From the NCBI GenBank assembly GCA_944388955.1, contig CALXKJ010000001.1:124001-188000 (forward strand): a stretch of 64,000 bases of DNA, read 5' to 3'. The position numbers and the translations under genes were made by a program. How positions within the stretch are numbered: position 1 is the first letter of the stretch; every line of letters starts with the position of its first letter. The notes beneath the pieces are model-generated. The model searched no databases and had not been told where the DNA came from. It worked only from the letters and a program-made list of their open reading frames with translations. Origin of the DNA: an uncultured Spirochaetaceae bacterium (GTDB taxonomy: Bacteria; Spirochaetota; Spirochaetia; Sphaerochaetales; Sphaerochaetaceae). Below, in pieces: positions 8,815-19,593 of this stretch.

Positions 8815-10887
8815 TCATACATAGAAGAGAATCTCTGAATATGTCGGGATAGGCCAGTATGATTTGTCAGTCACTGTCTCAAGCTCGTCACTGAGTTTTC
8901 TTGCCTCCTCCATCTTCGGGATAATCTCATCAGCCGCGTAGAATGCGGCCTTCTCCGTTTCAGCCGGAGTTCCGGCGACGCATTCATCGAGCTCGTCAAT
9001 CCTGAGAAGCAGGCCATCGCATAAAGTGCTCAGTCTTGCGCAGAGGGCTTTGTCTGCATTGGCTGTGACCCCGATGCTCTCCTTCAGCTGTACCGATGAG
9101 GCAATAGATGACGAGAAGCGGATAGCTGCTGGGAGAATCTGTCTTCTCAGTATTTCACTCATTGTCACAGCTTCGATATGGATAGCTTTCTGATACTCAT
9201 CAAGCGATATCTCCAATCTCGACTCCATCTCCTCTTTCGTGTAGATTCTATGCCTTCTGAAGAGCTCCAGATTCTTCTCGTCAGCGTAGTGGATGAGAGC
9301 GTCCGGAGTTCTCTTGTAGTTTGATAGTCCTCTCTTCTCCGCTTCTGCTTCCCATTCCTTGCTGTAGCCGTTTCCGTTGAAAAGAATACGCCTATGTGCT
9401 TTCAGCTCCCTTTTGATCAGCTCATTAAGCCGTGAATTGAAATCATCGGCTCCTTCAAGTTCATCACAGAAGCTCTTGAGTGCATCTGCGACAGCCGTGT
9501 TGAGCATGACGTTCGTGCATGCGATGTTGAATGAGGATCCCGGCATGCGGAATTCGAATTTGTTGCCAGTGAAGGCAAAAGGGCTTGTCCTGTTTCTGTC
9601 TGAGTTGTCCCTTGAGAGTTTTGGAAGCACGCTTGTACCTATATCCAGATGAGATGATGAGCTTCCCTTGAAGGGCTTACCGTCTATGATGGATTCTATT
9701 ACCGACTCAAGTTCATCCCCGACGAATATCGATACAATGGCAGGAGGAGCTTCATTGGCCCCGAGTCTGTGGTCGTTTCCAGCGCTCGCCACGCTTATGC
9801 GCAAGAGGTCCTGATACTCATCCACCGCCTTTATGACCGCTGTCAGGAATAGCAGGAACTGTGCATTGTCCTTAGGCGTCTTACCCGGATCAAGGAGGTT
9901 TTCCCCATCATCTGTGCTGAGCGCCCAGTTGTTATGCTTACCAGAGCCATTGATTCCCTCAAATGGCTTTTCATGAAGAAGACAGGCGAAGCCATGGCGT
10001 TCAGCAACTTTCTTCATCATTTCCATCGTGAGCTGATTGGCATCCGTTGCCTTGTTCGCGTTGTCAAAGATAGGTGCCATCTCATGCTGGCATGGCGCGA
10101 CTTCGTTGTGCTCTGTCTTTGCTGTTATCCCAAGCTTCCAGAGCTCTTCATCAAGATCCGCCATGAAGGCTTTCACTCTTGGTCTTATAGAGCCGAAGTA
10201 GTGGTCCTCCATCTCCTGTCCTTTCGCTGCCGGAGCTCCGATGAGTGTGCGTCCTGTAAGCCTCAGATCAAGACGTTTGGCGTAATCATTCTTGTCGATG
10301 AGGAAATACTCCTGTTCCGCTCCTATTGTGGCATTTACGCGTTTGACGTGCTTTCCGAAAAGCGAAAGTGCTCTCACCGCTTCATCACTGATTGCGTCCA
10401 TGCTTCTTAAAAGCGGTGTTTTCTTGTCGAGGATCTGACCGGTATAGGAGCAGAATGCTGTCGGGATGCATAGCGTGTCATCCTTGATGAACGCATAGCT
10501 TGTTGGATCCCATGCCGTGTAGCCACGCGCCTCGAATGTGGCTCTGAGGCCACCTGATGGGAAGCTCGATGCATCAGGCTCTCCCTTTGTGAGCTCCTTT
10601 CCTGAGAAGTCCATTATGACAGAGCCGTTCTTGTCAACCGCGAGGAAGCTGTCATGCTTTTCTGCTGTGATTCCGGTCATTGGCTGGAACCAGTGCGTGA
10701 AGTGCGTCGCTCCCTTGCTGACTGCCCATTCCTTCATTGCGGATGCCACGATATCTGCGACATCCTCATCAAGGGCTTTTCCTTCAATCATGGTATTCTG
10801 TAATGATTGATATACCTTCTTCGGAAGCATTTCTCTCATTACAGTATCATTGAAAACCATAGACCCAAACATTTCAGGTACATTCAT
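8815..10887 (-). CDS. glnN: glutamine synthetase type III
   Basis: 690 residues, the length of GSIII and far longer than type I. Signatures: GAEQEYFLIDKNDY, EHNEVAPCQHEMAP, GINGSGKHNNWALS and ANEAPPAIVSIFVG, which form the catalytic barrel. It makes glutamine from glutamate, ammonia and ATP in the cytoplasm as a large double-ring oligomer. The start is fixed by a strong AGGAGGAA about 5 nt upstream. It follows the ANTAR regulator gene by 13 bp and is third in a glnA-ANTAR-glnN operon, so it should share control by the leader upstream of glnA. Two unrelated glutamine synthetases in one operon probably serve different nitrogen states. Confidence 0.96.
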   Translation of the reverse strand: MNVPEMFGSMVFNDTVMREMLPKKVYQSLQNTMIEGKALDEDVADIVASAMKEWAVSKGATHFTHWFQPMTGITAEKHDSFLAVDKNGSVIMDFSGKELTKGEPDASSFPSGGLRATFEARGYTAWDPTSYAFIKDDTLCIPTAFCSYTGQILDKKTPLLRSMDAISDEAVRALSLFGKHVKRVNATIGAEQEYFLIDKNDYAKRLDLRLTGRTLIGAPAAKGQEMEDHYFGSIRPRVKAFMADLDEELWKLGITAKTEHNEVAPCQHEMAPIFDNANKATDANQLTMEMMKKVAERHGFACLLHEKPFEGINGSGKHNNWALSTDDGENLLDPGKTPKDNAQFLLFLTAVIKAVDEYQDLLRISVASAGNDHRLGANEAPPAIVSIFVGDELESVIESIIDGKPFKGSSSSHLDIGTSVLPKLSRDNSDRNRTSPFAFTGNKFEFRMPGSSFNIACTNVMLNTAVADALKSFCDELEGADDFNSRLNELIKRELKAHRRILFNGNGYSKEWEAEAEKRGLSNYKRTPDALIHYADEKNLELFRRHRIYTKEEMESRLEISLDEYQKAIHIEAVTMSEILRRQILPAAIRFSSSIASSVQLKESIGVTANADKALCARLSTLCDGLLLRIDELDECVAGTPAETEKAAFYAADEIIPKMEEARKLSDELETVTDKSYWPIPTYSEILFYV

Positions 10888-10900
10888 GATATTCCTCCTG

Positions 10901-11452
10901 TTATGACAATTCCCTTATGATATTCAATGCCGCGTCTGATAGGCTTATGCGGCAATCCATTGCTTTCTTCTCCAGATAGCTATGAGCTTCCTTCTCGCTC
11001 ATGCCATCTCTTCTTGCCAGAAGGCACTTCGCTTCAGTCAGAAGCTTCTCATTCCTAAGCCGTTCAAGGAGCTTCATGTATTTCTCCTCTGCTTTCCGTA
11101 TCTTCACCTTCGAGACTGTGATTGCGCTCAACACGGCTGCAAGGCTGATTCTCTCGGGCCTTACCACATATACGCCATACTTCTGCATGATATGTGTTAT
11201 ATGACCGCTCAGCTCATCGGGGACTATGAGTATTGTGTCGACATCCTCAGATGAGGCGAAGATAGCTATCTCCTTTGCGGTACCACCGGGAAGATCTGCA
11301 TCGACAACGGCAAGAGATAGCTGGAAATCGAGGATCTTCATCCGCGCTTCCTTTGTGCTTTCTGCTCTGATGAATGCATATCCACCTGAGGGAAAAAGCC
11401 TTTTGATCTCGTCGTATCGTGCATGCTCTGCAACCACTAGTACCGTTTCCAT
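10901..11452 (-). CDS. ANTAR-domain RNA-binding antitermination regulator with receiver-like N-terminus
   Basis: 183 residues. Residues 1-115 fold like a response-regulator receiver (METVLVVAEHARYDE; VVDADLPGG at the usual phospho-Asp strand), but the paired acidic residues after strand 1 are replaced by AEH, so phosphorylation is uncertain. Residues about 120-180 form a coiled coil plus ANTAR three-helix domain (LLTEAKCLLARRDGMSEKEA), the module that binds dual-hexaloop RNA hairpins and prevents termination. It is encoded between glnA and glnN, and matching RNA elements lie upstream of glnA and of the divergent glt operon. Inferred role: antiterminator of nitrogen-assimilation operons, including its own. 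No sensor kinase is adjacent. Confidence 0.9.
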   Translation of the reverse strand: METVLVVAEHARYDEIKRLFPSGGYAFIRAESTKEARMKILDFQLSLAVVDADLPGGTAKEIAIFASSEDVDTILIVPDELSGHITHIMQKYGVYVVRPERISLAAVLSAITVSKVKIRKAEEKYMKLLERLRNEKLLTEAKCLLARRDGMSEKEAHSYLEKKAMDCRISLSDAALNIIRELS

Positions 11453-11460
11453 TTTCTCAC

Positions 11461-12747
11461 CTAGATGAATGGGAAATAACGTCTGATCATGTATTCATAA
11501 TCATTTCCGTTTCTTTCGAACTCCTCAGCTTCCGCCTTTCTGTCCTCGAGGAATGCTTTAGCGATTCTCTGGGGAATAACAGAGTGGATGAAGTCGCTTT
11601 TCTCTGCTTCCATGACCGCTTCGGAAAGGCTCGATGGGAGCCTTCCCGGAAGCGGAGAGGAAAGCATGTCTCCTGCTGCTTCCGGTTCTGGTTCCAGCTC
11701 ATCCGCGATGCCTTCAAAGCCCGCGGATAGAAGTAGGGAAATAAGGAGGTATGGGTTAGCAGCGGGATCAGGGCTTCTGACTTCCATACGGCAGTCATGA
11801 CCCTCTGCATACGGTATTCTAACCAGAGTGGATCTGTTCTGGTGGCTCCAGGATATATTCGAGGGGGCTTCAAACCGCCCGAAGCGCTCATATGATGAGA
11901 CTAGTGGATTCGAGAATGCTGTTATCTCATTCATTCTTCTGAGGATCCCAGCCATGAACGAATATGCTTTCGCATCCTCTGTGGAGAAGAGATTCCTGTC
12001 TTTCTCATAGAGCGAAAGATTTATATGAAGTCCGTTGCCGCTCTCATTCTCAAGCGGTTTCGGAAGAAATGAAGCGTACAGACCATGAAGCTGTGCTATT
12101 GCCTTAACCGCTGTTTTGAATGTCATTAGGTCATCGGCTGCTTTAAGAGGAGAGGAACAGCGGAAATCGATTTCATTCTGCCCAGGTCCATGCTCATGAT
12201 GGCTTCTTTCAGGTTTAATGCCCATGTTTTCCAGCGCGAAGCATATTTCACGTCTTACATTTTCGCCTTTGTCGAGAGGCGCCATGTCAAAATATCCAGC
12301 GTTATCGAAAGGTGCCAGTGTCGGGAAGCCTTTCTCATCAGTCTCGAAGAGGTAGAACTCGCATTCAGGCCCGACAAGGAATGAATAGCCGTTTTTTCCG
12401 CTTTCCTTCTCTATCCTTGAAAGAAGATAACGGCCATCGCCTTCAAAAGGCCGTCTGTCAGGGTATGTGATGAAGCAGTAGAATCTGGCGACGGCTCTCT
12501 CGGATGGCCTCCATGGAAGAATCGAGAATGTATTGAGATCCGGAAACAGAAGCAGGTCTGATTCGTTTATATTGAGAAATCCCTTTATAGCAGAGGCATC
12601 GAATGAGACACCGTGCTTTACAGCATGCTCAAGTTCATCTGCCATTATGGCGATGTTCTTCTGCCGTCCTGAGATGTCACAGAAAGCAAGTCTTATAAAC
12701 TTGATTTCGTATTCGGAAAGCAGCTCTTTGATATCCTGTAAATCCAT
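11461..12747 (-). CDS. glnA: glutamine synthetase, type I
   Basis: 428 residues. Beta-grasp N-terminus with FIRLAFCDISGRQKNIAI, then catalytic motifs VGPECEFYLF, HHEHGPGQNEIDF, SGNGLHINLSLY and RMEVRSPDPAANPYL. Ends RRYFPFI without the adenylylation-site region of GSI-beta, so covalent control by GlnE is unlikely. Slightly shorter and more divergent than typical GlnA; a glutamate-amide ligase on another amine cannot be ruled out, but the setting (ANTAR regulator, glnN, glutamate synthase) supports glutamine synthesis. The ATG is preceded by TGGAGGG. First gene of the glnA-ANTAR-glnN operon, with a terminator-bearing leader. Confidence 0.85.
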   Translation of the reverse strand: MDLQDIKELLSEYEIKFIRLAFCDISGRQKNIAIMADELEHAVKHGVSFDASAIKGFLNINESDLLLFPDLNTFSILPWRPSERAVARFYCFITYPDRRPFEGDGRYLLSRIEKESGKNGYSFLVGPECEFYLFETDEKGFPTLAPFDNAGYFDMAPLDKGENVRREICFALENMGIKPERSHHEHGPGQNEIDFRCSSPLKAADDLMTFKTAVKAIAQLHGLYASFLPKPLENESGNGLHINLSLYEKDRNLFSTEDAKAYSFMAGILRRMNEITAFSNPLVSSYERFGRFEAPSNISWSHQNRSTLVRIPYAEGHDCRMEVRSPDPAANPYLLISLLLSAGFEGIADELEPEPEAAGDMLSSPLPGRLPSSLSEAVMEAEKSDFIHSVIPQRIAKAFLEDRKAEAEEFERNGNDYEYMIRRYFPFI

Positions 12748-12763
12748 ATATCCCTCCAGAACT

Positions 12764-12803
12764 GAAAAAGCGCCGCAGATTGTTTTCTGCAGCGCCTTTG
12801 CTG
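12764..12803 (-). promoter_or_regulatory. glnA leader: dual-hexaloop ANTAR-like element overlapping a terminator
   Basis: In the transcript (minus strand) hairpin 1 is CAGC-AAAGGC-GCTG (loop 12794-12799, A1 and G4 present). It abuts hairpin 2, CAGA-AAACAA-TCTG (loop 12780-12785), whose loop has A1 but C at position 4. The alternative fold pairs AAAGGCGCTGCAGA with TCTGCGGCGCTTTT, followed by more U, giving an intrinsic terminator upstream of the start codon. Loop 1 is therefore part of the terminator 5' arm, so the two folds exclude each other. The layout copies the glt leader at 12934-12979. Regulation by the ANTAR protein is inferred. Confidence 0.68.
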
Positions 12804-12814
12804 TTCTTGGCTGA

Positions 12815-12844
12815 ATATTAGAGAATCGCGGACAATATAGTCAA
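12815..12844 (-). promoter_or_regulatory. glnA: promoter of the glnA operon
   Basis: Minus-strand TTGACT (12839-12844), 18-bp spacer, TAATAT (12815-12820). Predicted transcription start near 12808, immediately upstream of the first hexaloop hairpin. Confidence 0.65.
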
Positions 12845-12897: not shown

Positions 12898-12927
12898 TTG
12901 ACAAGCATGAGTGATATGTCGTAAAAA
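12898..12927 (+). promoter_or_regulatory. promoter of the glutamate synthase operon
   Basis: Perfect -35 TTGACA (12898-12903), 18-bp spacer, weak -10 TAAAAA (12922-12927). Predicted start near 12933-12935, right at the foot of the first ANTAR hairpin. The weak -10 hints that activity is further controlled. Confidence 0.6.
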
Positions 12928-12933
12928 GGCGTC

Positions 12934-12979
12934 AGAAACAAGGACGTTTCTAAGAGAGATCTTAGTGCGTCCTTTTTTT
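12934..12979 (+). promoter_or_regulatory. ANTAR dual-hexaloop antiterminator and overlapping intrinsic terminator, glt leader
   Basis: Hairpin 1 is AGAAAC-AAGGAC-GTTTCT (12934-12951). Hairpin 2 is CTAAG-AGAGAT-CTTAG (12950-12965). Both loops have six bases with A at position 1 and G at position 4, the established ANTAR recognition pattern. The competing fold pairs AAGGACG (12940-12946) with CGTCCTT (12968-12974) and runs into a seven-T tract (12973-12979), a terminator 18 bp ahead of the glt start codon. Because the terminator 5' arm is loop 1 plus its closing base, protein binding to the hexaloops would block termination. The structure is seen directly; the protein partner is inferred from the ANTAR gene 1.5 kb away. 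Confidence 0.85.
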
Positions 12980-12997: not shown

Positions 12998-14092
12998 ATG
13001 AAGAGAGAAGGTGAGGTGAGAATCAGCTCGGGATGCGCTATCAGCGGGATATTCTGCAAGGATGGCAAGCGTATCTCGGGAGAGGCAATCAGAAAAAGCA
13101 TTGCTGTCATGCACAACAGATCGAATGGGCTTGGCGGAGGATTCGCTGCCTATGGGATATATCCGCAGTACAAGGAATACTTCGCTTTGCATATATTCTA
13201 TGATTCCCAGCTGGCGAGGGAGGAGACCGAGAGATTCCTCGATAAGCGGTTCGATATAATAAATCTATCGAAGATTCCTGTCAGGCAGACTCCAAAAATC
13301 GCGGATGCACCGCTTATATGGCGATATTTCGTTCTTCCGCTTCCGCATATGCTGCAGGACAGCCAGCTCGATGAGGATGAATACACCTCAAGAGCCACAA
13401 TCATGATAAATGATTCCATTACAGGCGCATATGTTGTCTCATGCGGTAAGGATATGGGTGTGTTTAAGGCTGTGGGTTACCCCGAGGATGTCGCTGATTT
13501 CTATCGCATTGAGGAATATGAGGGGTATTCATGGACAGCGCATGGCCGCTATCCGACAAATACGCCTGGATGGTGGGCTGGCTCGCATCCATTCTCGCTT
13601 CTCGATCTTACAGTTGTTCATAACGGAGAAATATCATCATATGACGCGAATCGCCGGGCGGTGGAGATGTATGGTTATTCATGCAACCTCCTGACAGATA
13701 CAGAGGTCATTACATACATCCTCGACTATCTTACCAGAAAGCAGAGGTTAACGCTAAAAGAGAGCTCTGAAGTCATCGCGGCTCCATTCTGGTCTACTAT
13801 CGCGATAAAAGATGAGGAGGACAGGAAGAGGCTTTCATATCTGAGAAAGATGTATTCATCGTTTCTTGTCACAGGACCGTTCTCGATCCTTGTGGGTTTC
13901 AGAGGTGGAATGATGGCTCTCAATGACAGGCTGAAGCTGAGAAGTCTTGTTGCCGCAGAAAAAGGTAGTACTGTCTATTTCAGCTCCGAGGAAGCGGCTA
14001 TAAGGGTCATAGAGGAAAACCCTGACAGAATCTGGGCTCCGCAGGGCGGGGATGCAGTGATAGTCACACTTGAGAAGGGGGCTGATGTATGA
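12998..14092 (+). CDS. glutamate synthase, glutaminase-like domain 1 subunit (split archaeal-type GltB)
   Basis: About 364 residues from MKREGEVRISSGCAISG, with AGAGG 8 nt before the ATG. This start puts the leader terminator in untranslated RNA, which the longer open frame from 12911 would not. Class II amidotransferase fold: SGCAISG near the N-terminus with an internal rather than residue-2 cysteine, TAHGRYPTNTPG and VVHNGEISSYD, the glutamine-binding residues of GltB domain 1. It would release ammonia from glutamine for the synthase subunit encoded next. It overlaps that gene by 4 bp (ATGA). Processing of a short N-terminal extension before Cys13 would be needed if that cysteine is the nucleophile. 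Confidence 0.88.
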   Translation: MKREGEVRISSGCAISGIFCKDGKRISGEAIRKSIAVMHNRSNGLGGGFAAYGIYPQYKEYFALHIFYDSQLAREETERFLDKRFDIINLSKIPVRQTPKIADAPLIWRYFVLPLPHMLQDSQLDEDEYTSRATIMINDSITGAYVVSCGKDMGVFKAVGYPEDVADFYRIEEYEGYSWTAHGRYPTNTPGWWAGSHPFSLLDLTVVHNGEISSYDANRRAVEMYGYSCNLLTDTEVITYILDYLTRKQRLTLKESSEVIAAPFWSTIAIKDEEDRKRLSYLRKMYSSFLVTGPFSILVGFRGGMMALNDRLKLRSLVAAEKGSTVYFSSEEAAIRVIEENPDRIWAPQGGDAVIVTLEKGADV

Positions 14093-15573
14093 GGCGATAC
14101 AGAATCAGAAAGGATGAAAGCTGTGTGTCGTGTCTCAGATGCGTTAGAGAGTGCTCTTTCGGGGCAATCACGGCAGGCGATGATAAATCACTTGTCTTCC
14201 ATCATGAGAAGTGCACTGATTGCCAGCGCTGTGTTTCATTCTGTCCGGCAGGAGCTATCTATATAACCGAAGATGAGAACAGGTTCAGGAGGAATGCTGT
14301 CTTCAGTGAGGATGATATCAAGGAGATAAGGCTTCAGGCTGAGACTGGCGGCGTTCTTCTCTCCTCGATGGGGGCTTCAGGGAGAAATGTGCCGATATAT
14401 TTCGATAAAATGCTTCTCAATGCAAGCCAGGTCACGAATCCATCAATCGATCCGCTTCGAGAGCCGATGGAGACAGCGGTTTTCCTAGGACAGAGACCTG
14501 AAGGGATTGAAAGGAATCAGATGGGAGATATCGAGGATAATCTCCCTCCTCATCTTGAGCTGAAGACGCCTATCATGTTTTCCGCGATGAGCTATGGAGC
14601 GATAAGCCTCAATGTGCATAAGGCGCTTGCCTCTGCGGCAGAGAAGCTCGGGATTTACTGGAATACAGGCGAAGGTGGTCTTCATGAGAGTCTTTATCCA
14701 TACAAGGAGCATACAATAGTGCAGGTCGCCTCCGGGCGATTCGGAGTGCATGAGACATATCTCAATACAGCGGCGGCTATCGAGATAAAGATAGGGCAGG
14801 GAGCAAAGCCTGGCATAGGAGGACACCTTACCGGAAAGAAAATCATCGGCGATGTTTCCAAGACGAGAATGGTGCCTGAAGGGCTGGATGCAATAAGTCC
14901 CGCGCCGCATCACGATATCTATTCGATTGAGGATCTGGCACAGCTTGTGATGTCTATAAAGGAAGCGACGCATTATGAGAAGCCTGTTATCGTAAAGGTT
15001 GCTGCTGTGCATAATATCGCACCGATTGCATCAGGAATCGCCAGAAGCGGTGCGGATATCATCTCGATTGATGGTTACCGTGGAGGGACAGGTGCCGCCC
15101 CTAAGAGAATCCGTGACAATGTCGGTATTCCTATAGAACTCGCGATAGCTTCCGTTGACCAGAGACTGCGTGAGGAGCGGATAAGAGATAGGGTGAGCGT
15201 TATCGTTTCAGGCGGTATCAGGAACTCGTCAGATGCTGTAAAGGCAATTGCGCTTGGCGCGGATGCCGTTTCAATCGGCACGGCAGCCTTGTGTGCCCTT
15301 GGCTGTCATATATGCGCTTCCTGCCATACGGGACGCTGTGCATGGGGACTTGCAACGCAGATACCAGAACTGACAAAAAGGCTTGATCCGGAAAAAGGCG
15401 CGGAGCTTCTTGTGAATCTGGTGAACGCCTGGACACGTGAAATCAAGGAAATCATGGGAGGCATGGGCATAAACAGCATTGAAGCGCTTCGCGGGAACCG
15501 CATGGCGCTCAGAGGTGTGGATCTCAATGAAAAAGAACTTGAGATTCTCGGAATACGATACGCAGGAGAATGA
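14089..15573 (+). CDS. glutamate synthase, ferredoxin-FMN domain 2 subunit
   Basis: 494 residues. Two 4Fe-4S clusters near the N-terminus: CVSCLRCVREC (Cys 12, 15, 18, 22) and CTDCQRCVSFCP (42, 45, 48, 52). An FMN-binding TIM barrel follows with SAMSYGAISLNVH, GEGGLHESLYPY, GQGAKPGIGGHL, SIDGYRGGTGAAP and the Fe-S cysteines of CHICASCHTGRCAWG. It reduces the iminoglutarate formed from 2-oxoglutarate and ammonia to glutamate, probably taking electrons from ferredoxin through the added clusters. Middle gene of a three-gene split GltB, seen in archaea and several anaerobic bacteria, with 4-bp overlap upstream and 1 bp to the next start. Confidence 0.93.
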   Translation: MRRYRIRKDESCVSCLRCVRECSFGAITAGDDKSLVFHHEKCTDCQRCVSFCPAGAIYITEDENRFRRNAVFSEDDIKEIRLQAETGGVLLSSMGASGRNVPIYFDKMLLNASQVTNPSIDPLREPMETAVFLGQRPEGIERNQMGDIEDNLPPHLELKTPIMFSAMSYGAISLNVHKALASAAEKLGIYWNTGEGGLHESLYPYKEHTIVQVASGRFGVHETYLNTAAAIEIKIGQGAKPGIGGHLTGKKIIGDVSKTRMVPEGLDAISPAPHHDIYSIEDLAQLVMSIKEATHYEKPVIVKVAAVHNIAPIASGIARSGADIISIDGYRGGTGAAPKRIRDNVGIPIELAIASVDQRLREERIRDRVSVIVSGGIRNSSDAVKAIALGADAVSIGTAALCALGCHICASCHTGRCAWGLATQIPELTKRLDPEKGAELLVNLVNAWTREIKEIMGGMGINSIEALRGNRMALRGVDLNEKELEILGIRYAGE

Positions 15574-16298: not shown

Positions 16299-17885
16299 AT
16301 GTGTACAGTTTTTGCCTATAGCGGGAAAGCTATCAGCATTCCCCAGATAAGAAGAATCCTTGAGAAGACTGAGAGAAGGGGACCCGATGCTGAGCGTATC
16401 ATCTCACCAGAGAAGAATCTCTTCCTTGCGTTCCAGCGGCTTTCGATTATGGGCCTTGATGAGCGTGGCATGCAGCCATTCGAGTACAAAGGCATGTATA
16501 GCATAACAAATGGGGAGATTTACGGATTCAGGGACATAAGAAGGCAGCTGGAGAATGATGGATATGCCTTCTCCTCTGATTCTGACTGCGAAACCATTCT
16601 TTATCTCTGGGATAAATACAGGGAAAAGATGTTTTCAAAGCTTGATGCGGAATTCGCAACTGTAATCTATGACAAGGAAGATGGTCTCATCGCGGCGCGT
16701 GACCCTATAGGTATCAGACCATTGTTCTTCGGTTACGATTGTGACGGACGTATTGCATTCGCAAGCGAGGCATGTCTTCTCACGTCATTCTGCCACGATG
16801 TGTTTCCCTTCCCTCCAGGGCATTATTACATGCATGGTGAATTCGTATGCTATCGGGATATCTCGCGGGTGGATTCATATGCTTATGGATCACTTGATGA
16901 TGTCACGAGGAATATAAGGGATAAGCTTATCAAAGCTGTTGAGAAGCGGCTTGATTCAGATGCGCCTGTAGCATTTCTTCTTTCAGGAGGGCTGGATAGC
17001 TCCCTTGTCTGCTCTATCGCATCCAGATTGCTTGATAAGCCTATACGCACATTCTCCATCGGTATGGATAAAGATCCTATCGACTCAAAGTACGCAGAGC
17101 GTACAGCCTCATTTCTCGGTGCTATGCACACGAATGTGACGATGACGGAGGATGATGTGATTTCCATTCTCCCCGAGGTCATAGAGTCATTGGCGACATA
17201 TGATATAACGACTATCAGGGCAAGCATCGGCATGTACCTCCTATGCAGATATATTCATCGGCATACAGATGTGAGGGTGCTTCTTACAGGGGAGGTATCA
17301 GATGAGCTTTTCGGTTATAAATATACAGATTTTGCTCCGGATTCCGACGCGTTTGAGAAGGAAAGCCAGAAGAGGGTGAGAGAGCTTTATGCGTATGATG
17401 TCCTGAGAGCGGACAGGTGCATTGCAGATAACAGCATTGAGGCCAGAGTCCCCTTCGGCGATCTTGATTTCGCATCTTATGTCCTTTCCATAGATCCGGA
17501 GATGAAGATGAACCGAACAGGTCATGGGAAATATCTTCTCCGCAAGGCTTTTGATGATGGTACATGGCTTCCTGATGATATTCTCTGGAGGGAAAAGGCC
17601 GCATTCAGTGATGCAGTGGGGCATAGCATGGTTGATGACCTTAAGGCTTATGCAGAGAGATATTTTGAGGGACGGGATCTTGAAGCGGAATATATGAAGT
17701 ATCCAGAGCAGGGCCGGCCATTCACACCAGAATCACTTCTGTACAGGGAAATCTTTGAGAGATTCTATCCCGGGCAGTACAGAATGATTCCCGGTTTCTG
17801 GATGCCTAATAGCACTTGGCCAGGCTGCAATGTAAATGACCCTTCTGCGCGTGTTCTCTCGAATTACGGCAAAAGCGGTGAGTGA
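16299..17885 (+). CDS. asnB: asparagine synthetase (glutamine-hydrolysing)
   Basis: 528 residues. Starts MCTVFAYSG, exposing the Cys2 nucleophile of the class II glutaminase domain, which fixes the start at 16299 rather than the upstream ATG at 16221. RRGPDAERI and the glutamine-binding region follow. The synthetase domain has the PP-loop FLLSGGLDSSLVCSIASRL near residue 227 and LLTGEVSDELFGYKYTDF. It transfers glutamine amide nitrogen to aspartate with ATP. Last gene of the leader-controlled glt operon, so asparagine synthesis would rise with glutamate synthesis. A strong terminator follows. Confidence 0.93.
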   Translation: MCTVFAYSGKAISIPQIRRILEKTERRGPDAERIISPEKNLFLAFQRLSIMGLDERGMQPFEYKGMYSITNGEIYGFRDIRRQLENDGYAFSSDSDCETILYLWDKYREKMFSKLDAEFATVIYDKEDGLIAARDPIGIRPLFFGYDCDGRIAFASEACLLTSFCHDVFPFPPGHYYMHGEFVCYRDISRVDSYAYGSLDDVTRNIRDKLIKAVEKRLDSDAPVAFLLSGGLDSSLVCSIASRLLDKPIRTFSIGMDKDPIDSKYAERTASFLGAMHTNVTMTEDDVISILPEVIESLATYDITTIRASIGMYLLCRYIHRHTDVRVLLTGEVSDELFGYKYTDFAPDSDAFEKESQKRVRELYAYDVLRADRCIADNSIEARVPFGDLDFASYVLSIDPEMKMNRTGHGKYLLRKAFDDGTWLPDDILWREKAAFSDAVGHSMVDDLKAYAERYFEGRDLEAEYMKYPEQGRPFTPESLLYREIFERFYPGQYRMIPGFWMPNSTWPGCNVNDPSARVLSNYGKSGE

Positions 17886-17928: not shown

Positions 17929-19527
17929 TCATCGGAGTGAAGCTTTTATGAAGCCGTCAAAAAGAGGATGGACTCTGTTAGGACGGCTTTTGAATTCAGG
18001 ATGAGACTGCACCGCCACGAAGAAATGGCAAGCTGGATTCTCCATCGCTTCAACAAGCTTCCCATCTGGGCTTACACCGCTGAAGACAATACCGCTTTCA
18101 GCAATCCTGTTTCTGAATAGGGGAGATACTTCATAGCGATGTCTATGCCGCTCCTGCACGATATTCTGTCCATACAGCTTATAAAGCCGCGTCCCTGTCT
18201 GAATCCTGCAAGGGTAGGCTCCTAGCCGCATCGTACCGCCTTTTGCCGCTATGTTCCTCTGCTCATCCATGATATCGATAACGCACTCACTGCCATTTGA
18301 ATCGAATTCACGGGAATTGGCATTTGCAAGTCCTGCTAGGGAGCGTGCCGCTTCGATTACAGCAATCTGCATTCCAAGGCATATCCCGAGGTAAGGGATA
18401 TCATGCTCACGAGCGTAACGGGCGCATTGTATCATTCCCTCGATTCCCCTTGAGCCGAAACCACCCGGAACAAGAATGCCATCTGCATCTTTAAGGAATT
18501 TATCCGCGCCTTCTTTCTCCACGTCCTCTGTGTCTATGAATGAAAGCTCCAGGTCTGCATCATTCCAGCTTGCGGCATGTGAAAGCGCTTCATTGATTGA
18601 AAGATACGCATCATGGAGTTTTACATATTTACCGCATATGGCAATCCTGACTTTTTCCGTTTTGCTGCGAGTCATTCGCTCTACAGCTTTATCCCATGCT
18701 TCAAGATTGCATTCATTGCATTCCAGTGAGAGTCTGGAGATGACATATTCATCGAAGCCACGTTCGTGAAGCAGCCGTGGCAGAGCATATATTGGACTGA
18801 TATTCTCATTGCCGATTACAGCACGTCTTTCGACATTGCAGAACATGGCAATCTTTGACAGGAGGGAATCTTCCAAAGGCTTGTCAGAACGCGCGATTAT
18901 GCAATCTGGCATTATTCCCATTCCCTGAAGCTCATGCACCGAATGCTGTGCCGGTTTTGTCTTGTACTCGCCGCTGCATTGGAGATAAGGCACGAGAACG
19001 ACATGTATGAACATCGAATTCCCGATTCCCACTTCAGTTCTGAGCTGTCTTGCGGCTTCCAGAAAAGGCTGGCTTTCTATATCACCAATTGTTCCTCCGA
19101 TTTCGGTAATGACAACATCGGCTTCTGTCATCTCACCAAGTGAGTATATGGCCCGTTTTATTTCATCGGTGACATGAGGGATTATCTGGACAGTCTTTCC
19201 GAGATACTCTCCTCGTCTTTCCCTTGTCAGTATATTCCAGAAAACCTTTCCACTAGTCAGATTTGACATCTTGTTCAGATTCTCGTCGATGAATCTTTCG
19301 TAATGCCCCAGATCCAGATCTGTCTCGGCCCCATCTTCCGTGACAAACACCTCTCCATGCTGGTATGGGCTCATTGTTCCCGGATCCACATTCAGATACG
19401 GATCTAATTTCTGAGCCGCGACCTTGAGTCCTCTCTCTTTCAGCAGAAGACCAAGGCTTGCAGCGCTCACGCCTTTGCCAAGTCCTGAAACAACACCGCC
19501 TGTGACGAAGATATATTTTCTTTCCAT
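17929..19527 (-). CDS. pyrG: CTP synthase
   Basis: 532 residues. N-terminal synthetase domain: KYIFVTGGVVSGLGKG, DPYLNVDPGTMSPYQHGEV, TEIGGTIGDIES. C-terminal class I amidotransferase from about 290 with GGFGSRGIEG and the nucleophile in LGICLGMQIAV near residue 384, plus VQSHPEFKSRP. It converts UTP to CTP using glutamine nitrogen. GGGAGGA lies 5 nt before the ATG. Between promoter and start lies a terminator hairpin resembling the glt and glnA leaders. As a glutamine consumer, pyrG is a reasonable member of the same regulon. Confidence 0.97.
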   Translation of the reverse strand: MERKYIFVTGGVVSGLGKGVSAASLGLLLKERGLKVAAQKLDPYLNVDPGTMSPYQHGEVFVTEDGAETDLDLGHYERFIDENLNKMSNLTSGKVFWNILTRERRGEYLGKTVQIIPHVTDEIKRAIYSLGEMTEADVVITEIGGTIGDIESQPFLEAARQLRTEVGIGNSMFIHVVLVPYLQCSGEYKTKPAQHSVHELQGMGIMPDCIIARSDKPLEDSLLSKIAMFCNVERRAVIGNENISPIYALPRLLHERGFDEYVISRLSLECNECNLEAWDKAVERMTRSKTEKVRIAICGKYVKLHDAYLSINEALSHAASWNDADLELSFIDTEDVEKEGADKFLKDADGILVPGGFGSRGIEGMIQCARYAREHDIPYLGICLGMQIAVIEAARSLAGLANANSREFDSNGSECVIDIMDEQRNIAAKGGTMRLGAYPCRIQTGTRLYKLYGQNIVQERHRHRYEVSPLFRNRIAESGIVFSGVSPDGKLVEAMENPACHFFVAVQSHPEFKSRPNRVHPLFDGFIKASLR

Positions 19528-19542
19528 GATTCCTCCCGGAAA

Positions 19543-19584
19543 AAGAAAAGACGCCTATCCCCTTAGAGATAGACGTCTTTGTCC
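19543..19584 (-). promoter_or_regulatory. pyrG leader attenuator with one ANTAR-like hexaloop
   Basis: Transcript order on the minus strand: GGAC-AAAGAC-GTCT (19571-19584; hexaloop with A1 and G4). Then a second hairpin CTATC/GATAG whose loop is not A1/G4 and may close to a UAAG tetraloop. The competing terminator pairs AAAGACGTCTATC with GATAGGCGTCTTT and ends in TTTTCTTTTT. As in the glt and glnA leaders, loop 1 supplies the terminator 5' arm. The attenuator is well supported; ANTAR control is weaker because loop 2 deviates. Confidence 0.6.
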
Positions 19585-19593
19585 AACAAAAGC

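Follow-up and report, generated by a model that had tools for sequence, protein, structure and literature searches.

Antitermination by ANTAR proteins has been described for EutV on eut, NasR on nasF and AmiR on amiE (Ramesh et al. 2012, PMC3369931). In the canonical design, a first hexaloop hairpin (P1) stands free, a second one (P2) overlaps an intrinsic terminator, and the linker between them measures 5 to 12 nucleotides (nt) (PMC3369931, PMC8934654). Walshe et al. 2022 (PMC8934654) proposed that a single hexaloop suffices as the minimal ANTAR site, and predicted more targets. That glutamine and glutamate genes can be under ANTAR control is already known: Desulfotomaculum glutamate synthase leaders are among the ANTAR targets (PMC3369931), and NitR of Clostridium saccharobutylicum (Stutz et al. 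2007), as far as the account citing it goes (PMC6316151), is an ANTAR regulator of glutamine synthetase and glutamate synthase genes, acting by antitermination on nitrogen limitation. Here we describe the leader of gltB1, a split glutamate synthase gene, in a 64,000-nt stretch of DNA from an uncultured Spirochaetaceae bacterium ("the window"). From the sequence we propose, with a probability of about 0.75, that in this leader the transcript opens with a single-hexaloop ANTAR antiterminator, run by the neighbouring ANTAR protein.

The proposed device shares with the eut, nasF and amiE systems a hexaloop with A at position 1 and G at position 4 (A1/G4), a hairpin exclusive with a terminator, an ANTAR protein, nitrogen genes as targets and a possible multi-operon regulon. 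Unlike those dual-hexaloop systems, it has one hexaloop, and its only recognition hairpin, the 5′ one, is also the one overlapping the terminator; there is no recruitment hairpin and no linker, and the element starts near +1. It also departs from the single-hexaloop proposal of Walshe et al. 2022 in that the single sites here are terminators. The likeness to NitR, within what the citing account covers, lies in ANTAR control of the same two kinds of genes by antitermination.

Three predicted attenuators in the window

The features on which the argument depends are the following.

12934..12951, + strand: P1 hexaloop hairpin, AGAAAC-AAGGAC-GTTTCT, loop 12940-12945
12940..12979, + strand: intrinsic terminator; 5′ arm 12940-12947, beginning with the hexaloop; 3′ arm 12967-12974; U-run 12973-12979
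12950..12965, + strand: P2 of the first-pass annotation, here the apex of the terminator hairpin, best fold CTAAGA-GAGA-TCTTAG; hexaloop not conserved
12898..12927, + strand: predicted gltB1 promoter; -35 TTGACA 12898-12903, 18-nt spacer, weak -10 TAAAAA 12922-12927
12763..12803, - strand: second attenuator, in the glnA-ANTAR-GSIII leader; CAGC-AAAGGC-GCTG, loop 12799-12794, terminator arm to 12767 plus U-run
12815..12844, - strand: predicted glnA promoter; -35 TTGACT 12844-12839, -10 TAATAT 12820-12815
19540..19585, - strand: third attenuator, in the pyrG leader; TGGAC-AAAGAC-GTCTA, loop 19580-19575, terminator arm to 19547 plus U-run

The gltB1 leader contains the parts that the first-pass annotation had listed, namely the hairpins AGAAAC-AAGGAC-GTTTCT (12934-12951) and CTAAG-AGAGAT-CTTAG (12950-12965), both with A1/G4 loops, and seven T residues at 12973-12979. 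In the minimum free energy (MFE) fold, AAGGACGT (12940-12947) pairs with GCGTCCTT (12967-12974) around the CTAAGA-GAGA-TCTTAG apex, and this terminator fold reached -19.0 kcal/mol versus -4.9 kcal/mol for P1 alone. Since the P1 loop doubles as the terminator 5′ arm, the two structures are mutually exclusive, which bears out the incompatibility claimed for them earlier; in the growing RNA, P1 was favoured from about 12951 until the terminator 3′ arm emerged at 12969-12972. The leader thus has the layout on which ANTAR-type antitermination is based, a hairpin with an A1/G4 hexaloop that cannot coexist with an intrinsic terminator. The P1 stem in the window has one extra A-U pair (A in one arm, T in the other) compared with relatives. 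Both predicted promoters match the consensus; the position of the gltB1 promoter is identical across all close relatives, and the glnA promoter is kept in relatives. The first hairpin follows the end of the predicted gltB1 -10 box by about 8 nt, which leaves no space for another hexaloop upstream.

Both strands were scanned for an A1/G4 hexaloop hairpin with a stem of at least 4 bp and a loop opening a terminator 5′ arm, and this revealed exactly three sites in the window (gltB1, 12940, +; glnA, 12799, -; pyrG, 19580, -) versus 0.2 per 64 kb in shuffles, all of them in leaders of glutamine genes. A genome-wide covariance model returned the same three at E<1e-3, with the next match at E=0.2; as the three sequences had helped to build the model, its informative part is that the genome has no further strong sites. 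Rfam at the gathering threshold found only tRNAs and no family for the leader, and at permissive thresholds the gltB1 leader obtained only weak, sub-threshold matches. The glnA and pyrG copies had been absent from the first-pass annotation. With the former lying upstream of the ANTAR gene itself, the regulator gene sits behind a terminator that the ANTAR protein is predicted to open; with the latter, a glutamine-consuming enzyme of nucleotide synthesis appears to be a member of the ANTAR regulon. The pyrG attenuator of Bacillus subtilis likewise places a terminator near +1 in a pyrG leader, differing in that its signal is CTP, acting through reiterative addition of G, and in that neither a hexaloop nor an ANTAR protein is known to take part.

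A plain terminator or a chance hairpin serving no regulation would account for the strength of the terminator, and generic terminators can contain AAAGGC...GCCTTT. This explanation is very hard to credit, since the three sites far exceed the chance expectation and all precede glutamine genes, in relatives too the element stands between a gene and that gene's promoter, and P1 covaries separately from the terminator.

Covariation and the second loop

To describe conservation, we used 54 element-bearing leaders of gltB1, glnA, pyrG and GSIII from 33 genomes (the source genome included), and computed covariation on 26 distinct composites. The P1 stem was 100% paired with two-sided changes in three of four pairs, and the terminator was 97.6% paired with two-sided changes in three pairs; the scanner requires pairing, so that these percentages are partly by construction, while the variety of the paired sequences is not. 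That variety includes GAAC/GTTC, CAGC/GCTG, GGAC/GTCT, TGAC/GTCA and CAAC/GTTG in the P1 stem. Loop positions 3 and 5 covary with their partners in the terminator 3′ arm, whereas position 4 remains G even with U as its terminator partner, which indicates a constraint beyond termination.

The first-pass annotation had taken the leader for a complete dual hexaloop, a reading that comparison did not support. Two tandem A1/G4 hexaloop hairpins are literally present in this gltB1 leader but are not a property of the element. P2 lies inside the terminator hairpin and can form together with it, the exclusive hairpin being P1; the best reading of AGAGAT, and the one in the MFE fold, is a GAGA tetraloop closed by an A-U pair. 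Because P2 overlaps the 6-bp P1 by 2 nt, the linker amounts to 0 to 2 nt, outside the canonical range. Conservation in relatives held for the first hairpin, which was present in 18 of the 20 gltB1 leaders defined by protein homology alone, and was patchy for the nested A1/G4 hexaloop, which occurred in 10/18 gltB1, 1/18 glnA, 3/13 pyrG and 0/5 GSIII leaders.

A canonical dual antiterminator, with recognition of both loops and a role for the second, is accordingly an unlikely alternative, although it could draw on the A1/G4 pattern of both loops here, on the nested hexaloop kept in ten gltB1 leaders and on the brief coexistence that both hairpins can have during transcription. Apart from the terminator compatibility of P2, shortening the eut linker (5 to 12 nt) to 3 nt abolished most induction (PMC3369931), and the glnA, pyrG and GSIII leaders of the regulon mostly have no nested A1/G4 hexaloop. 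The rule is also violated at gltB1 itself in L056 (first loop base G), L054 and L062 (7-nt nested loop), L057 (GCAA-capped stem), L059-L061 (different stem) and L074, and the AGAGAT and AGTGAT loops can equally be read as A-(GNRA)-U.

Nor was a transcribed upstream hexaloop found in the leaders, the few chance hexaloops sitting in or before the promoter. Across the 54 leaders, with starts placed by consensus, the end of the -10 box precedes P1 by 5 to 15 nt (median, 10), and the transcript is therefore expected to start about where the hairpin starts. Under a relaxed dual definition (3-bp P2), 2 of the 54 leaders qualified. Canonical dual motifs in Lachnospiraceae eut loci, meant as a positive control for the scanner, were not detected under either definition, so that the absence of dual motifs rests on promoter spacing and inspection of the leaders.

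The predicted regulator, its locus and its occurrence with the element

The genes of the locus are listed below.

8815..10887, - strand: GSIII, type III glutamine synthetase
10901..11452, - strand: ANTAR regulator; receiver-like N-terminus and C-terminal ANTAR domain
11461..12747, - strand: glnA, glutamine synthetase
12998..14092, + strand: gltB1, glutamine amidotransferase part (class II) of split glutamate synthase
14089..15573, + strand: gltB2, glutamate synthase FMN/Fe-S part; PF01645
15479..16291, + strand: gltB3, GXGXG part; open reading frame as listed, true start internal near 15570
16299..17885, + strand: asnB, asparagine synthase; start set by the MCTV N-terminus
17929..19527, - strand: pyrG, glutamine-dependent CTP synthase, located past asnB

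The minus-strand genes glnA, ANTAR and GSIII form a cluster with intergenic gaps of 8 and 13 nt, and the closest relatives keep the gene order of the locus; the nearest named relatives of the source genome are uncultured Spirochaetales. The asnB open reading frame as listed begins at TTG 16221 and overlaps gltB3, while the Met-Cys N-terminus and homology favour a start at 16299.

A regulator gene 1.5 kb from the leader had been announced by the first-pass annotation, and the protein encoded at 10901-11452 indeed carries PF03861 (47.5 bits; cut-off, 27.3) and is the sole protein with this domain in the genome. A profile of its orthologues recovered Rv1626, AmiR, EutV and NasR. Its invariant residues K142, E153, H157, M165 and R168 align with K149, E160, Y164, M172 and R175 of EutV, all of them contacts to the hexaloop hairpin in its crystal structure (PMC8934654), and the counterpart of Y164 is His, as in AmiR. 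In the receiver-like domain, VAE replaces the acidic pair and orthologues carry D, N or E at the phosphoacceptor Asp position, a pattern that is not that of a phosphorylated, EutV-like response regulator. In this the N-terminal domain resembles the AmiR pseudo-receiver. Without constant phosphorylation residues, an input from a protein or ligand appears likelier than one from a kinase, and the adjacent glutamine synthetases are an attractive guess for its source. Among the seven closest relatives, the regulator showed 66-72% identity versus 82-92% for GlnA and GSIII, with the divergence mostly in the receiver-like half.

We then compared the occurrence of the element (E<=1e-3) with that of the ANTAR gene in the source genome and 60 relatives. 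In and around the genus, 31/34 ANTAR-plus and 0/27 ANTAR-minus genomes had the element, a contrast to be read with the model having been built from the genus and most ANTAR-minus genomes being distant. Within the genus, loss of ANTAR in G020, G021 and G027 goes along with loss of gltB1 and pyrG, and G005 is only 76% complete, so that these four are uninformative as natural knock-outs. The family of a Lachnospiraceae genome was not used in model building and provided an independent test, in which the element was found in 67/131 ANTAR-plus and 0/19 ANTAR-minus genomes (p=6e-6, uncorrected for relatedness). Thus the element occurs with an ANTAR gene. The best Lachnospiraceae matches, mostly just 3′ of promoter-like sequence and with one hexaloop, precede GSIII, glutamate synthase, asnB, glnA and amt as identified by inspection of the translated starts. 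Across Firmicutes and other spirochaetes the targets are GSIII, gltB, asnB, glnA, pyrG and amt, and elsewhere in the spirochaete genus the element stands before amt, asnB and a solute-binding protein gene.

Several arrangements were seen in single lineages. Tandem attenuators occupy the amt leader in one Firmicutes genome and one genome of the spirochaete genus (L114, about 265-400, -; L184, about 220-380). In two genus genomes a single-hexaloop element lies 240-270 nt before a gene for a secreted solute-binding protein (L167, 320, +; L178, 186, -). L075 and L077, from one sub-lineage with a divergent ANTAR protein, have a gltB1 leader without the element, and L075 has an AATGAC hexaloop variant before GSIII.

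An attenuator of the same shape could also be read by an RNA-binding factor other than ANTAR, given that ANTAR binding is a prediction and that G013, G022 and G031 have an ANTAR gene but no strong element. We regard this as improbable, as the A1/G4 loop and its C-G closing pair fit the EutV/NasR rule, the ANTAR gene lies within the regulated cluster, and neither of the two independent sets contained an element at E<=1e-3 in an ANTAR-minus genome.

Several points weigh against a single-hexaloop ANTAR switch. In the EutV work neither hexaloop was dispensable (PMC3369931, PMC8934654), and the EutV RNA contacts R142, K147, R168 and R177 are not conserved in the regulator. The gltB1 -10 box is weak, and transcription start sites were placed by consensus only. 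The scanner and the model were built on A1/G4 elements, making the A1/G4 invariance of the matches partly a matter of construction. The gltB1 leaders of the closest relatives mostly have an A1/G4 nested loop, which may have a helper role there, and the element is missing at gltB1 in G022, G005 and G031, two of which have ANTAR.

Proposed mechanism and meaning

In the single-hexaloop model, RNA polymerase would first make the P1 hairpin with its AAGGAC loop. Without active ANTAR protein, P1 would open on emergence of the 3′ arm GCGTCCTT, with which its loop would pair to form the strong terminator, and the RNA would end at the U-run, at about 12979 and some 20 nt before the gltB1 start. Active ANTAR protein would grip the hexaloop through A1/G4 and block loop pairing over the roughly 20 nt that are transcribed ahead of the 3′ arm; with P1 held, the polymerase would read into gltB1-B2-B3-asnB. 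The glnA-ANTAR-GSIII operon and pyrG would be under an identical device, and the circuit would contain positive feedback because the ANTAR gene lies behind the glnA switch. Comparative evidence supports the earlier proposal that the switch controls gltB1-B2-B3-asnB with the adjacent ANTAR gene as predicted regulator. Binding of the protein to the hexaloop would follow from this model, activation is the direction suggested by analogy with EutV, NasR, AmiR and NitR, and the signal is probably glutamine or nitrogen status.

The literature covered held no single-hexaloop, +1-proximal ANTAR attenuators, with most subscription journals outside that coverage and an earlier listing in the tables of Ramesh 2012 possible. 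We lean toward the view that such attenuators constitute a distinct and widespread form of ANTAR antitermination, overlooked as published searches required two hexaloops, and that nitrogen regulons of gut Lachnospiraceae and of this spirochaete genus may usually employ it. In the RNA-bound structure one dimer engages one loop, while the published EutV work requires both for antitermination (PMC8934654), and natural one-loop switches before core glutamine and ammonium genes would make this two-loop requirement directly testable. The single-hexaloop switches would also offer regulatory parts of about 45 nt, and from their distribution a nitrogen regulon is to be expected in many as yet uncultured bacteria of the gut.
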